Shown here: in pieces, positions 9,489-64,000 of the stretch
How the letters are laid out: each line of letters begins with the position of its first letter
How positions within the stretch are numbered: position 1 is the stretch's first letter
DNA from: Psococerastis gibbosa
Lineage: Eukaryota > Arthropoda > Insecta > Psocodea > Psocidae
Assembly: GCA_963971405.1 (NCBI GenBank)
Contig: OZ020485.1
Location: 2,046,001 to 2,110,000 of the forward strand
Reading direction: 5' to 3'
Length of the DNA stretch: 64,000 nt
Made by a program: the position numbers and the translations under genes
The notes under the pieces: model-generated
What the model was told of the DNA's origin: nothing
What the model saw: only the letters and a program-made list of their open reading frames with translations
Databases searched by the model: none

Positions 9489-9812
9489 GTAAGCTGAAGC
9501 TCACCATGCACACTTGACAAGTCAGACGACGATAAAAACCAATTCACCCCTCCATCTTTCCGGTCTGCATATTTTACACAAAACAGTGCAATTAATGTGG
9601 TACGTTGCTTGGTTAATGATAAATGGCAAACGCATAATTATTTTCGTAGATAAGAGCACTTGGGATACGGAATAACTTGTATAGAAAGAAACCGAAGGAT
9701 ATCATACGAAATTGATGGCGGGTGAGATGAGTGGTGGTGTCGATCGATGTCAGCCCCATCGCAGTCTGATATTTTTGTCCGTTAACCCTTCACCAGCCCC
9801 CGCCCCCACCCC
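9489..9812 (+). other. No gene seen; presumed dpr intron
   Basis: No exon recognised. Ends in a C-rich tract (CCCGCCCCCACC) that borders the tandem duplication. Confidence 0.5.
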
Positions 9813-10268
9813 CGCCCCGGCCTCCTCAACTGTTCATACTCATTTGCATGTTAGGGGGCAACTAAATTCACTTGCTTTACTAATTATGAAAAGGACTAAA
9901 TATTATATTCGATAACGTTCCTACGGTGCCGACGGTCATCATTAGCTCTTACAATACGATACATTAGAGCTGGATCAGTTCAACTGTAAAGACCAGAATT
10001 GATCCGTCAAAAAGTCAGTTTTCGTTTTCGTACCCACCTCCGCCCCGGCCTCCTCAACTGTTCATACTCATTTGCATGTTAGGGGGCAACTAAATTCACT
10101 TGCTTTACTAATTATGAAAAGGACTAAATATTATATTCGATAACGTTCCTACGGTGCCGACGGTCATCATTAGCTCTTACAATACGATACATTAGAGCTG
10201 GATCAGTTCAACTGTAAAGACCAGAATTGATCCGTCAAAAAGTCAGTTTTCGTTTTCGTACCCACCTC
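9813..10268. repeat. Perfect 228-bp tandem duplication
   Basis: Copy 1 is 9813-10040 and copy 2 is 10041-10268; I see no difference between them. Both begin CGCCCCGGCCTCCTCAAC. It is non-coding and probably lies in an intron or 3' region of the dpr-like gene. Confidence 0.9.
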
Positions 10269-10980
10269 CGCCTCTGTACCAGCACTAACAATTTTAAGTT
10301 ACTGTATAACAATATGAGAAAGTACCGATATAACACCGAGTTGACAAGTCGCTAAGGAATACTGCACAGCACCACCATCTCCCAATGTATGGCAATAAAA
10401 AGACAAAAGAAAATTTGCCTAAGGAGATTTTTTAACCCAAACGCAAAACACCAAAGGGACTTTGATTTTTATGGAGGTTTTAGGTATCGATGAATCCATA
10501 ATTCCCGACAACATACGGCCAGTTATTATAGGTCAAACCCGATTTTCACTGGATTATCAGGGTATTACAACAGCTGTCGATACAAATTGGTTTCCGTAAA
10601 AATAACAAATGGGTCAGTTAAACAAACATCAGATCCCATTTTAATACGACCATATTCAAACATTGAATCAACGGTCACTTAATTAAAAATATATCGTGTA
10701 CAGCAGTGTATACATCAAATAATCACCAATTTCATTTTACTTTCCCAATGAATTTATTGTAGTTTAAGAAATGGAACTGGAATGGTCATTAGTTTTAGGT
10801 AGGCTTTAGTGTATTTTACAAGACGACCGTAAAATGACACATGGCGTAGACAAATATATATAGTAGTTTCATATCGAGGGAGAAGCAGGAAAGAGCGAAG
10901 AGTTGATAGTTCGTGTCTCACATTTCCTGCTTTTCCTGGCCATACTTGAGACTTCAAAAGGAATGAACGACAAAGAAAGG
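10269..10980. other. No gene or clear repeat seen
   Basis: AT-rich sequence without a supported ORF, splice pattern or repeat end. Confidence 0.5.
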
Positions 10981-61186: not shown

Positions 61187-61262
61187 GGGGGGGGGGGATC
61201 CACCTCAATATATTAAAAAACCCCTTAAAACTCGATTGCATATTCAGGAACGAACAGACCAA
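61183..61262 (-). repeat. Helitron-like repeat B middle fragment
   Basis: G-run, then CCACCTCAATATATTAAAAA and CCCCTTAAAACTCGATTGCA, matching 21905-21990. It begins exactly at the homopolymer that ends the Harbinger piece. Confidence 0.7.
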
Positions 61263-61279
61263 AGTAGTATAGAAAGGGC

Positions 61280-61484
61280 GGTTCTGGCGCTTACCCCACC
61301 CCCCGTCGAGCTACCCATCTACCCCACCCCCCGTCATGCTACCCCTCGTGGGTGGTCTGAGGTTCTGGCGCTTACCCCACCCCCCGTCGAGCTACCCCAT
61401 CTACCCCACCCCCCGTCATGCTACCCCTCGTGGGTGGTCTGAGGTTCTGGCGCTTATCCCCCCCGTCGAGACCCGTGGGTGGTC
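61280..61484 (+). repeat. C-rich minisatellite, 81-82 bp units
   Basis: Units 61280-61360, 61361-61442 and a partial third from 61443. Each has GGTTCTGGCGCTTACCCCAC, two CCCCACCCCCCGTC blocks and ends CTCGTGGGTGGTCTGA. The C blocks could form i-motif or, on the other strand, G-quadruplex structures. It lies upstream of the two-ORF unit. Confidence 0.85.
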
Positions 61485-61679
61485 TTTCTATGGCACTATG
61501 ATTGTTTTTTTTTTTATAATTACTAATTTGTGAGATACAGAGTTATATTTTGATTTTTTTTTTTATGGTGTTAATTGAATTAAAACATTTCTTTCTTCTT
61601 CTTTCTTCTTCGTGGGTGGTCTTTGTACCCCGCCGTGCTTATCCCGTTGTCTATCTATCTCTGTACCAGGTGGGTGGTC
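61349..61679 (+). promoter_or_regulatory. Cluster of five TGGGTGGTC (GLI/Ci-type) motifs
   Basis: Exact copies at 61349-61357, 61431-61439, 61476-61484, 61613-61621 and 61671-61679. GACCACCCA is the core site of GLI/Ci zinc-finger factors. The first three are part of the minisatellite; the last two are not. A sixth lies at 63285-63293 before the second ORF. Confidence 0.5.
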
Positions 61680-61740
61680 TATGACGCACCCCCCCCCCTC
61701 CCCGTACAGCGTACATCTAGAATGTTCCAAATGTGTCGTT

Positions 61741-61842
61741 ACAAAAGGCATCACCTTGGGTTGAGGAGCTTAGTTGAAGCCAAACCTTCATTCAAGACTC
61801 AAGTAATACCACTTTATAAGTAAAATTGTATAATCTTACAAC
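61741..61842 (+). promoter_or_regulatory. Shared leader, copy 1, before the 101-codon ORF
   Basis: ACAAAAGGCATCACCTTGGG, TTGAGGAGCTTAGTTGAAGC and CAAACCTTCATTC are repeated at 63300-63396 ahead of the zinc-finger ORF, and the match continues up to the ATG (TTGTATAATCTTACAAC-ATG versus TTGTGTAATCGTACAGC-ATG). GCTTAGTTG could be an initiator. Probably promoter plus 5' UTR. Confidence 0.75.
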
Positions 61843-62148
61843 ATGACATCTCTATTCAATAAAGTTAATGCCATCAACCAAGTAGCCGGGCCTACCATAC
61901 CAATGCGAAAACTAGTGATTGGAGTTAAATACCTAATATTGAAAATAGTGCAAATCGAAAAAACAGAATATGGACCAGCTGTAAAAGTCATACTGCGAGG
62001 ATTGGAAAAAGAAGTCGTGGAATGTTTTGTGCCTCAACAATATCTGCCAGCCTTTCAACAAAGTGAAGTTACTCCAGGAGCTGAGATGTATCTTATCGTT
62101 TCAAGCCATCGGGGAAAAAATAGTGTCAACCTACAGATCATAGAATGA
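61843..62148 (+). CDS. 101-codon ORF of unknown function, first of a pair with a shared leader
   Basis: ATG directly follows the shared leader, which also decides the start. The protein begins MTSLFNKVNAINQVAGPTIP, then KLVIGVKYLILKIVQIEKTE, then YGPAVKVILRGLEKEVVECF and ends GKNSVNLQIIE. It is a small soluble protein of alternating beta-like segments (KYLILKIVQI, AVKVILRG, EMYLIVSS, VNLQIIE) without signal peptide or membrane segment. The beta pattern recalls a small OB-like fold, a guess only. The 3' side runs into tandem repeats, each with AATAAA, which could end the transcript. I cannot name the family; similar short ORFs with K-Y-x-I ... T-x-Y/F-G-x-A-V could exist in mobile elements. 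Confidence 0.6.
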   Translation: MTSLFNKVNAINQVAGPTIPMRKLVIGVKYLILKIVQIEKTEYGPAVKVILRGLEKEVVECFVPQQYLPAFQQSEVTPGAEMYLIVSSHRGKNSVNLQIIE

Positions 62149-62415
62149 ATATTTCATGATGTATTATTATTGTAAACTACAGAAATAATGTAAATATATG
62201 GATAATTTCTATATATATTTTTGTTTTATTAATTGCATAACTAATTTTAAGCTTACAGTTAGATGATGATGAGTATTAAAAACTAATGTTTGAAAGAAAC
62301 AAGCTATTGCTTCAGTCATAATCGAGAACTTGAACTGTGAAGGGTTATCATAATCATAGACTATGAAATGATGTAAATCAAATAATTAAACGAGTACATT
62401 AGCTAATTAATTTTA
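62149..62415. other. 3' flank of the 101-codon ORF
   Basis: AT-rich; no further ORF. AATAAA first appears at 62415. Confidence 0.5.
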
Positions 62416-63180
62416 ATAAATCTATCCGAAGCATAGGTTTATGGGAAGTATTGATTTGGTAAATAGTTAACCGTGTGCAGGTTCAAACCTGTTGTGAATC
62501 ACCAGGTGCATATAACTCTGTACAGCCGTCTAATGGTTCAGACAAACAACACATTAATAAATCTACCCCTCGCGGACAGTCCATTGTAAGCTAATGTGAT
62601 TTTTGTTTTCGTAAATCTATCCAACACTTATATTGAAGGGAAGTATTGATTTGGTAAACAGAGTGCAGGTTCAAACCTGTTGTGAATCACCAGGTGCATA
62701 TAACTCTGTACAGCCGTCTAATGGTTCAAACAAACAAGCCATTAATAAATCTACCCCTCGCTGACAGTCCATTGTAAGCTAAAGTGATTTTTGTTTTCGT
62801 AAATCTATCCAACACTTAGGTTGAAGGGAAGTATTGATTTGGTAAACAAATAACAGGGTGCAGGTTCAAACCTGTTGTGAATCACCAGGTGCATATACTC
62901 TGTACAGCCATCTAATGGTTCAAACAAACAAGCCATTAATAAATCTACCCCTCGCTGACAGTCCATTGTAAGCTAAAGTGATTTTTGTTTTCGTAGATCT
63001 ATCCAACACTTAGGTTGAAGGGAAGTATTGATTTGGTAAACAGAGTGCAGGTTCAAACCTGTTGTGAATCACCAGGTGCATATAACTCTGTACAGCCGTC
63101 TTATGGCTCAAACAAACAAGCCATTAATAAGTCTACCCCTCGCTGACAGTCCATTGTAAGCTAAAGTGATTTTTGTTTTT
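62416..63180 (+). repeat. Tandem array of four 188-195-bp units with paired palindromes
   Basis: Units begin at TCTATCC at 62421, 62616, 62804 and 62998. Each holds CAGGTT-CA-AACCTG, eight bases, then CACC-A-GGTG, followed by AACTCTGTACAGCC, ATTAATAAATCTACCCCTCG and GTGATTTTTGTTTTCG. Units 1 and 3 carry about 7 extra bases before GTGCAGG; units 2 and 4 do not. Lies between the two ORFs of the shared-leader pair. Confidence 0.9.
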
Positions 63181-63284
63181 GCATTAGTTGCAATCGATCG
63201 TTAGAAAATGAATGGTGTCTTAACAACATATTATCCGCTTCGTGATGGACAATCTATCCCTGTACCCTTACCATCTATCCTTCG

Positions 63285-63396
63285 TGGGTGGTCATCGCTA
63301 CAAAAGGCATCGCCTTGGGTTGAGGAGCTTAGTTGAAACCGAACCTTCATTCGCGTAGTACCACTTCAGTGTAGTGAATTTGTGTAATCGTACAGC
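63285..63396 (+). promoter_or_regulatory. TGGGTGGTC motif and shared leader, copy 2
   Basis: TGGGTGGTC at 63285-63293 lies 7 bases before CAAAAGGCATCGCCTTGGGT; the leader then matches 61741-61842 to the ATG. Confidence 0.75.
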
Positions 63397-64000
63397 ATGG
63401 AATCGAAGAAAAGGAAACTGAACGCGAGGGAATATGTGTGTAGAATATGTGCTGTGAGTTTCACACTAAATTGTCATTTGAAAAGGCATGCTATAAACAA
63501 ACATGGAGTTAGTATTATACCGTGCAAAAAATGTAAAGCTACATTCACATGCAGAGAGGACCTATCTCATCATATATTGCAGCGGCATACATCAGCAAAT
63601 CACGGGATGGAAATTGTACAAACTCGCCCAAAACTGACATCTGCTGGGAATGGAGAGGACTGCAAGGCATGCGGGGGCAAAATCAACAACTCCAGTCCAC
63701 TTACAGTTCTGTGTAAAGAATGTTCATCTATCTTTTCGTGTAAGTATGAGAATCCTGTATCTGTTAAAACCCTTGAGTGTAAATATATTTGTGAATTCTG
63801 TTCGGTCCCTTTTGCTCGGAAGTATAGTTTGAAAGTCCACATATTAAGCATACATATTATTAATTGTTTGAATTGCAAGAAATTGTTTATGAGGGAAGAT
63901 TTTACTAATCATAAGAATAATTGCACAATTATGAGCGGGGGAGCACTATCCAACGAGGAGAACTTTTTATGCAAAACATCTATAGCTCTAGATGGTGTTG
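63397..64000 (+). CDS. C2H2 zinc-finger ORF, second of the pair, runs off the right edge
   Basis: 201 codons visible, no stop. Starts MESKKRKLNAREYVCRICAV (basic run, likely nuclear). Fingers: C-x2-C-x12-H-x4-H at residues 15-36 (CRIC...HAINKH); a second at about 41-64 (CKKC...HILQRH); then a Cys4 pair (CKAC...CKEC, about 89-110) that may form a zinc ribbon; a third C2H2 (CEFC...HILSIH) and a C2HC finger (CLNC...HKNNC). DNA binding is likely from the family pattern. It might be the N-terminus of a longer protein such as a transposase, replication protein or host factor; the rest is outside the window. Shared leader and strand link it to the 101-codon ORF. Confidence 0.7.
   Translation, partial: MESKKRKLNAREYVCRICAVSFTLNCHLKRHAINKHGVSIIPCKKCKATFTCREDLSHHILQRHTSANHGMEIVQTRPKLTSAGNGEDCKACGGKINNSSPLTVLCKECSSIFSCKYENPVSVKTLECKYICEFCSVPFARKYSLKVHILSIHIINCLNCKKLFMREDFTNHKNNCTIMSGGALSNEENFLCKTSIALDGV

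Follow-up and report, generated by a model that had tools for sequence, protein, structure and literature searches.

A shared promoter-like leader precedes the DNA polymerase gene and a small ORF at the end of a Maverick/Polinton element

The DNA polymerase gene of a Maverick/Polinton element and a neighboring 101-codon ORF (ORF101) are preceded by the same leader of roughly 100 bp, which is probably a promoter cassette that drives both genes together, probably ahead of the virion genes. The stretch analyzed here (the window, 64,000 nucleotides) corresponds to C2:2046001-2110000 of the 409-Mb assembly and carries the left end of a young Maverick/Polinton of 15.3 kb, located at C2:2107263-2122580 and read as pieces L031-L034. 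The features at this end, in window coordinates, are as follows:

61257-61262, no strand: left copy of the 6-bp target site duplication GACCAA; the right copy lies directly after C2:2122580
61263-63252, + strand: left terminal inverted repeat; 61263-63179 matches the right end at 99.8%, followed by 120 bp at 94%
61263-61276, + strand: element terminus AGTAGTATAGAAAG, of the (AGT)2 type (AGTAGT), present at both ends
61280-61464, + strand: 82-bp tandem repeat, 2.3 copies
61349-61679, + strand: five TGGGTGGTC sites (61349, 61431, 61476, 61613 and 61671), partly within tandem repeats, of putative function
61740-61747, + strand: TATA-like TACAAAAG of leader 1, 32 bases before the A of TTAGTTG, one mismatch to TATAWAAR, of putative role
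61741-61842, + strand: leader 1, the putative core promoter of ORF101 together with its 5' UTR; transcription presumably starts (+1) near 61772
61843-62148, + strand: ORF101, 101 codons, inside the terminal repeat
62417-63179, + strand: 188-bp tandem repeat, 4 copies, inside the terminal repeat
63208-63255, + strand: in-frame remnant of ORF233 (its first 16 codons) at the inner repeat edge; ORF233 is the opposite-end gene
63285-63293, + strand: sixth TGGGTGGTC site, just upstream of leader 2
63299-63306, + strand: TATA-like TACAAAAG of leader 2
63300-63396, + strand: leader 2, the putative core promoter of the DNA polymerase gene together with its 5' UTR; transcription presumably starts (+1) near 63331
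63397-64000, + strand: polymerase ORF (1326 aa), N-terminal zinc-finger part; it continues outside the window to C2:2113377

The gene content of the element bears out the suspicion, raised in the initial annotation, of a multi-gene virus-like mobile element. Beyond the polymerase lie genes for a double jelly roll (DJR) major capsid protein (PF21738, E 1.4e-77), a weak C5/C48-like cysteine protease candidate (PF00770, E 0.0047, below the family cut-off; no PHROG match), a phospholipase A2-like protein (PF08398), an A32-type packaging ATPase (PF04665, E 4.5e-9) and a retroviral-type (rve) integrase (PF00665, E 1.4e-10). A 231-aa ORF adjoining the capsid gene, a penton (minor capsid) candidate, had no Pfam match, and searches of viral contigs with ORF101, the major capsid protein and the leader pattern returned no relatives. 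The terminal repeats measure about 2 kb, with 1919 bp at 99.8% identity (L031 463-2379 against L034 3080-1162) and 120 bp at 94% (L031 2333-2452 against L034 971-852). The terminus AGTAGTATAGAAAG was found with at most two mismatches at 29 of 30 loci, and 6-bp target duplications flank six of the seven full elements that have both ends among pieces L001-L030. According to the accessible part of one report (PMC8097293), vertebrate Mavericks end in (AGT)2 or (AG)3 and are flanked by 6-bp target duplications. The window element thus resembles Mavericks/Polintons in its (AGT)2 ends, 6-bp duplications, terminal inverted repeats, DJR capsid, A32-type ATPase, rve integrase and family-B polymerase motifs. 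It differs from described Mavericks in that its 2-kb repeats hold a whole gene with a promoter-like leader, in that a second gene carries the same leader, and in that palindromic, capsid-less derivatives occur here. The gene set is that of an ordinary Maverick; the leader pair, the gene within the repeat and the palindromes are variations on this known kind. Within the accessible open-licence literature, there was no report of a shared leader, gene-bearing repeats or palindromic polymerase-only Mavericks.

Because the terminal repeat encloses both ORF101 and leader 1, each of them is present twice in the window element; leader 2 begins about 48 bp inward of the inner edge of the left repeat. 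The ORF233 remnant at this edge suggests that the terminal repeat once extended further into ORF233. About 660 bp past the right end of the element (L034 3744-4793) there is an open 349-aa ORF, which we take to encode a mariner-like transposase, and elsewhere in the window, at 9805-10272, a 228-bp tandem repeat occurs in 2.1 copies at 99%.

The 1326-aa ORF is, judged by its motifs, a family-B DNA polymerase with C2H2 fingers at its N-terminus. The exonuclease and polymerase motifs YADFE, HNLKRYD, DCTNLYGHAM, KLKINSMYGK and TDTDS occur in order (patterns picked after reading the protein), and the assignment is based on them. PF03175 does not reach this ORF and instead matches six other loci of the genome; no Pfam polymerase model matched the ORF. 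In PHROGs, the polymerase ORF gave an endonuclease-VII-like match over one stretch and two further weak matches, both of unknown function; ORF101 matched nothing. Neither protein has sequence relatives among solved structures. ORF101 also had no Pfam match above noise and the other ORF begins with C2H2 fingers, so the two look unrelated, in line with the earlier observation that they have no protein likeness.

Between the window family (family A) and a sister family (family B), ORF101 shows a dN/dS of 0.29 at a dS of 0.315, which indicates a real gene under selection. A model of ORF101 built from the single sequence has the strand order b-b-b-a-b-b with a mean pLDDT of 47; the best Foldseek match had an E value of 0.072, and several of the top rows are, we assume, OB-fold proteins. 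From this weak OB-fold-like prediction, ORF101 is presumed, as a lead, to be an ssDNA-binding partner of the polymerase. Bam35/phi29-type systems encode a small SSB with a divergent OB-like domain beside a protein-primed polymerase, as the accessible part of one report describes (PMC8276246). ORF101 is like these SSBs in being a small protein encoded with a polymerase, its OB reading being a low-confidence prediction, and unlike them in having no sequence match to solved structures.

The two leaders, 61741-61842 and 63300-63396, are one block present twice, each ending at an ATG, and the alignment reaches through the ATG, which confirms that the same leader stands ahead of both ORFs right up to the start codon. 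Identity is 93% between 61736-61793 and 63295-63352 and 78-79% over the whole leader (BLAST E 4e-19; 87 of 110 columns, 15 coding bases included). The divergence between the leaders, initially estimated at 15-20%, is real and measures slightly higher, near 21%. A 38-base core, allowing up to three mismatches, occurs twice in the 64-kb window and in none of 100 shuffles. In family A, the leader homology starts within 4 bases of TACAAAAG (61740 and 63299).

Leaders of both kinds recur across the genome. Leader 1 runs directly into an open 101-codon ORF at all 30 fetched loci (40 best of 608 candidates), and leader 2 runs directly into the polymerase start in 30 of 30 matches in the fetched pieces, several of which are one place fetched twice; the proposed search for further copies, each ahead of an ORF, was thus positive for both genes. 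Among the matches listed, the leader with ORF101 is found genome-wide, often as facing pairs that are mostly 12-14 kb apart. In all seven full elements, picked for having ORF101 at both ends, the polymerase with leader 2 occupies one end and ORF233 the opposite one. Copy counts throughout are lower bounds, the best candidates scored being 150 of 377, 40 of 608, 40 of 560 and 40 of 388, and in further searches 133 of 730, 130 of 843 and 126 of 486. One full element, L043 (C14:2807200-2810500), has a diverged polymerase stretch, with 191-203 of 1570 columns differing from most other copies, and is perhaps a recombinant in this stretch.

The leader is restricted to these two genes in the window element. 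A leader HMM run on this copy (L032-L034) found none before the capsid, protease-like, ATPase, integrase or ORF233 genes; it recovered only the leaders of ORF101 and polymerase and the mirror copy, and the uniform promoter of many genes that had been envisaged was rejected for this element. The only further copy past the right edge, where more members had been thought possible, is the mirror copy carried by the right terminal repeat. The leader was also absent from two other PolB lineages of the genome, within the stretch read. In another PolB lineage, L083 (C1:5846700-5850700), a 114-aa ORF lies divergently (head to head) 220 bp from the polymerase start. It faintly resembles ORF101 through a suggestive motif, but 57 of 1000 shuffles score as high, and we do not count it as a relative.

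Family B places the leader in a different gene order. A capsid search returned at least 84 full-length copies at 99-100%, at least 42 family-B copies at 91% and 7 partial rows (best 133 of 730), and the integrases form two groups at 98-100% and 93-94% (best 130 of 843). In family B, the leader precedes the polymerase in L063 and L067 and the ORF101 homolog, an 82% identical protein, in L064, L065 and L066, with the gene inverted relative to family A. The presence of the leader before both genes in both families indicates that it was on both before the families parted and was kept through the change in gene order, in agreement with the initial view that the copies are not recent. In the family-B copy L063/L064, the ORF101 homolog lies outside the 919-bp repeat, and at the end opposite to it, at L063 2414-2517, a decayed ORF101 start with its leader stands back to back with the polymerase leader. 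The copy L065/L066, which has capsid and integrase, carries the ORF233/ORF101 kind of end on both sides. The two ends form an inverted repeat, 99.9% identical over 3078 bp or more, and the left piece, L065, gave no match to a polymerase start. This end duplication (L065, C2:28933400-28939600; L066, C2:28946000-28950400) is opposite to that of the polymerase palindromes described below.

The comparison of the two families also indicates how strongly the leader is conserved. Leader cores are 78-88% identical over six pairings; between A and B orthologs, the core of the ORF101 leader is 88% and that of the polymerase leader 78% identical. Synonymous divergence of three genes between the families is 0.28-0.37, which predicts about 71-77% identity, and the 3' flank of ORF101, 256 bp of non-coding sequence, shows 78-79% identity (both strands compared). 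Given this neutral expectation and the flank, among orthologs the ORF101 leader stands out and the polymerase leader does not, and conservation of the leader appears modestly above that of neutral DNA. Neither the outer terminal repeat nor the 188-bp repeats matched between A and B on either strand. Leaders of different genes, which parted before the A/B split, have cores that are 83-86% identical in all four pairings. This cross-gene likeness is the better argument for constraint, although gene conversion could also yield it.

The core promoter of RNA polymerase II has a TATA box (consensus TATAWAAR) about 30 bp before the initiator. In all four leaders, a TATA-like sequence starts 29-32 bases ahead of the A of the heptamer TTAGTTG, which is conserved except that one leader has ATAGTTG and which itself lies 64-71 nt upstream of the ATG. 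The TATA-like sequences are TACAAAAG at -32 in two leaders, CATAAAAC at -32 in another, and GATATACA at -31 or TATACACC at -29; these TATA and initiator matches are weak and were picked after looking, with a chance of 2.7% (one mismatch) or 11.5% (two) at these offsets. RNA folding of the four presumed 5' UTRs was in no case clearly better than shuffles (z -0.27, 0.61, -1.54 and 0.35), and a structured RNA leader was set aside for this reason. Together, the weak TATA-like and initiator-like geometry and the lack of RNA structure favor a core promoter with its 5' UTR. The cassette would comprise a TATA-like box, the initiator-like TTAGTTG and a 5' UTR of 64-71 nt running into the ATG, and would presumably be read by host RNA polymerase II. 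It would drive the genes of a replication module together, namely those for the family-B polymerase and for ORF101 as its putative ssDNA-binding partner, with expression early and probably ahead of the virion genes.

Common expression, already suggested as the reason for the like leaders, is judged the likeliest explanation. Of the alternatives, an unlikely one is that the leader is a historical leftover, duplicated passively when the polymerase-ORF101 region was flipped and duplicated around the terminal repeats, and since then undecayed or gene-converted. Such duplications do happen, as seen from the broken ORF101 start and leader kept beside the polymerase leader in L063, and repeats and palindrome arms are homogenised. 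The extra upstream stretch ACAAAAGGCATC, common to both family-A leaders and lacking in family B, is what gene conversion would give, and the 3' flank of ORF101 shows almost the same conservation as the leader. A passive leftover accords poorly, however, with both leaders directly adjoining the starts of intact genes in either family and either gene order, or with copies older than the A/B split being as alike as younger ones. The gene-less family-B remnant also scores 45.8 bits with the leader HMM, compared with 74-80 bits for leaders before genes, four of which built the model.

An element acting at the RNA level, that is, a common 5' UTR setting the translation or stability of both mRNAs, would account for a conservation that spans the presumed 5' UTR as far as the ATG, and for the absence of upstream ATGs from both family-A leaders. 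We regard it as improbable, as the four leaders fold no better than shuffled sequences to any clear degree and the family-A homology already sets in upstream of the presumed transcription start, at the TATA-like box. Least probable is that the block acts in cis as a signal in replication or packaging and not in expression. Its appeal lies in the location of the copies near the ends of a linear element that, by their position, is presumably protein-primed; yet the leader points at and ends at the ATG in both families and moves with ORF101 when that gene is inverted.

The TGGGTGGTC sites around the leaders are a side lead. TGGGTGGTC is the GLI consensus GACCACCCA, as given in the accessible part of one report (PMC2930663), read on the opposite strand. 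Six exact sites occur in 61263-63396, compared with a mean of 0.014 in 500 shuffles, the sites being partly tandem copies, and one lies within 40 bp upstream of leader 2 in 30 of 30 matches (several being one place fetched twice). None was found in six family-B end pieces, and GLI sites as the cause of shared expression are kept as no more than a lead.

Related arrangements of upstream sequences or promoters are described for other elements. In the yeast linear plasmids pGKL, one conserved upstream sequence precedes different genes; this UCS has 6 bases, usually lies 20-40 nt before each ORF and is used by an element-specific cytoplasmic RNA polymerase (PMC6211774, accessible part). The window element is similar in being linear with a common upstream sequence before different genes, but its block is about 100 bp, in contrast to the 6-base UCS, and precedes two genes only. 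In the tectivirus GIL01, replication genes are under the early promoters P1/P2 at the left end and virion genes under another (PMC6182141, accessible part). The replication genes at the left end and their proposed early expression are alike; unlike here, the GIL01 promoters are in tandem and belong to a bacterial phage, and the accessible part of that report describes no leader common to two separately led genes.

Some elements have leader 2 and the polymerase at both ends, with at least seven on C1 among the matches listed. Four were read (C1:3433700-3448500, 27839500-27851300, 25643600-25657500 and 156400-171000; pieces L051-L062), and all four consist of repeat, ORF101, leader 2, polymerase and spacer, followed by the mirror image. 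Seven of the eight arms stop matching the full element at one common position, L032:4184, some 70 bp into the capsid gene; the remaining one, in the 27.84-Mb palindrome, is truncated and ends earlier. The protease-like, ATPase and integrase genes lie on piece L033, to which none of the four palindromes has a match longer than 250 bp. The centers of three palindromes are inverted repeats, 99.3-99.8% identical in the outer 410-453 bp and rich in TTAGG/CCTAA, while that of the palindrome with the truncated arm is not an inverted repeat. Over 1570 aligned polymerase columns, the arms of one palindrome differ by 0-1 and two palindromes of one sublineage by 0-2; both arms carry the same 14-17 differences that separate two sublineages, and both differ from the window copy by 11-19. 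Because elements of the same sublineage are also 0-2 apart, the sign of concert is the presence of the shared 14-17 sublineage differences in both arms.

In 27 of 50 facing ORF101 pairs (best 150 of 377 matches), a listed family-A capsid gene lies between the two copies; the other 23 have none and are candidate palindromes, the structure being established by reading for four elements. An arm-end query gave 11 facing pairs (best 40 of 388 matches). Six-base target duplications flank three of six testable palindromes, compared with six of seven full elements. The palindromes may have integrated as whole units, which the three duplications support and the three misses weaken, and an assembly error is a possible explanation. 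Tentatively, and with doubt somewhat outweighing confidence, the replication module could be a selfish satellite, in which giant two-gene palindromes lacking capsid, ATPase and integrase, maybe near full elements in number, are integrated in trans and their arms kept identical by snap-back or hairpin copying in each cycle. The palindromes, which carry the two-gene module with its leaders, were presumably integrated in trans by full elements.

Maverick transcription, and Maverick replication factors besides PolB, are little described in the open-licence literature. The leader is a concrete candidate promoter, and its presence on both polymerase and ORF101, in two families with different gene order, makes ORF101 a likely replication partner. 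If the palindromes are satellites, these young and nearly identical copies would allow the study of Maverick parasitism and of replication by arm copying.
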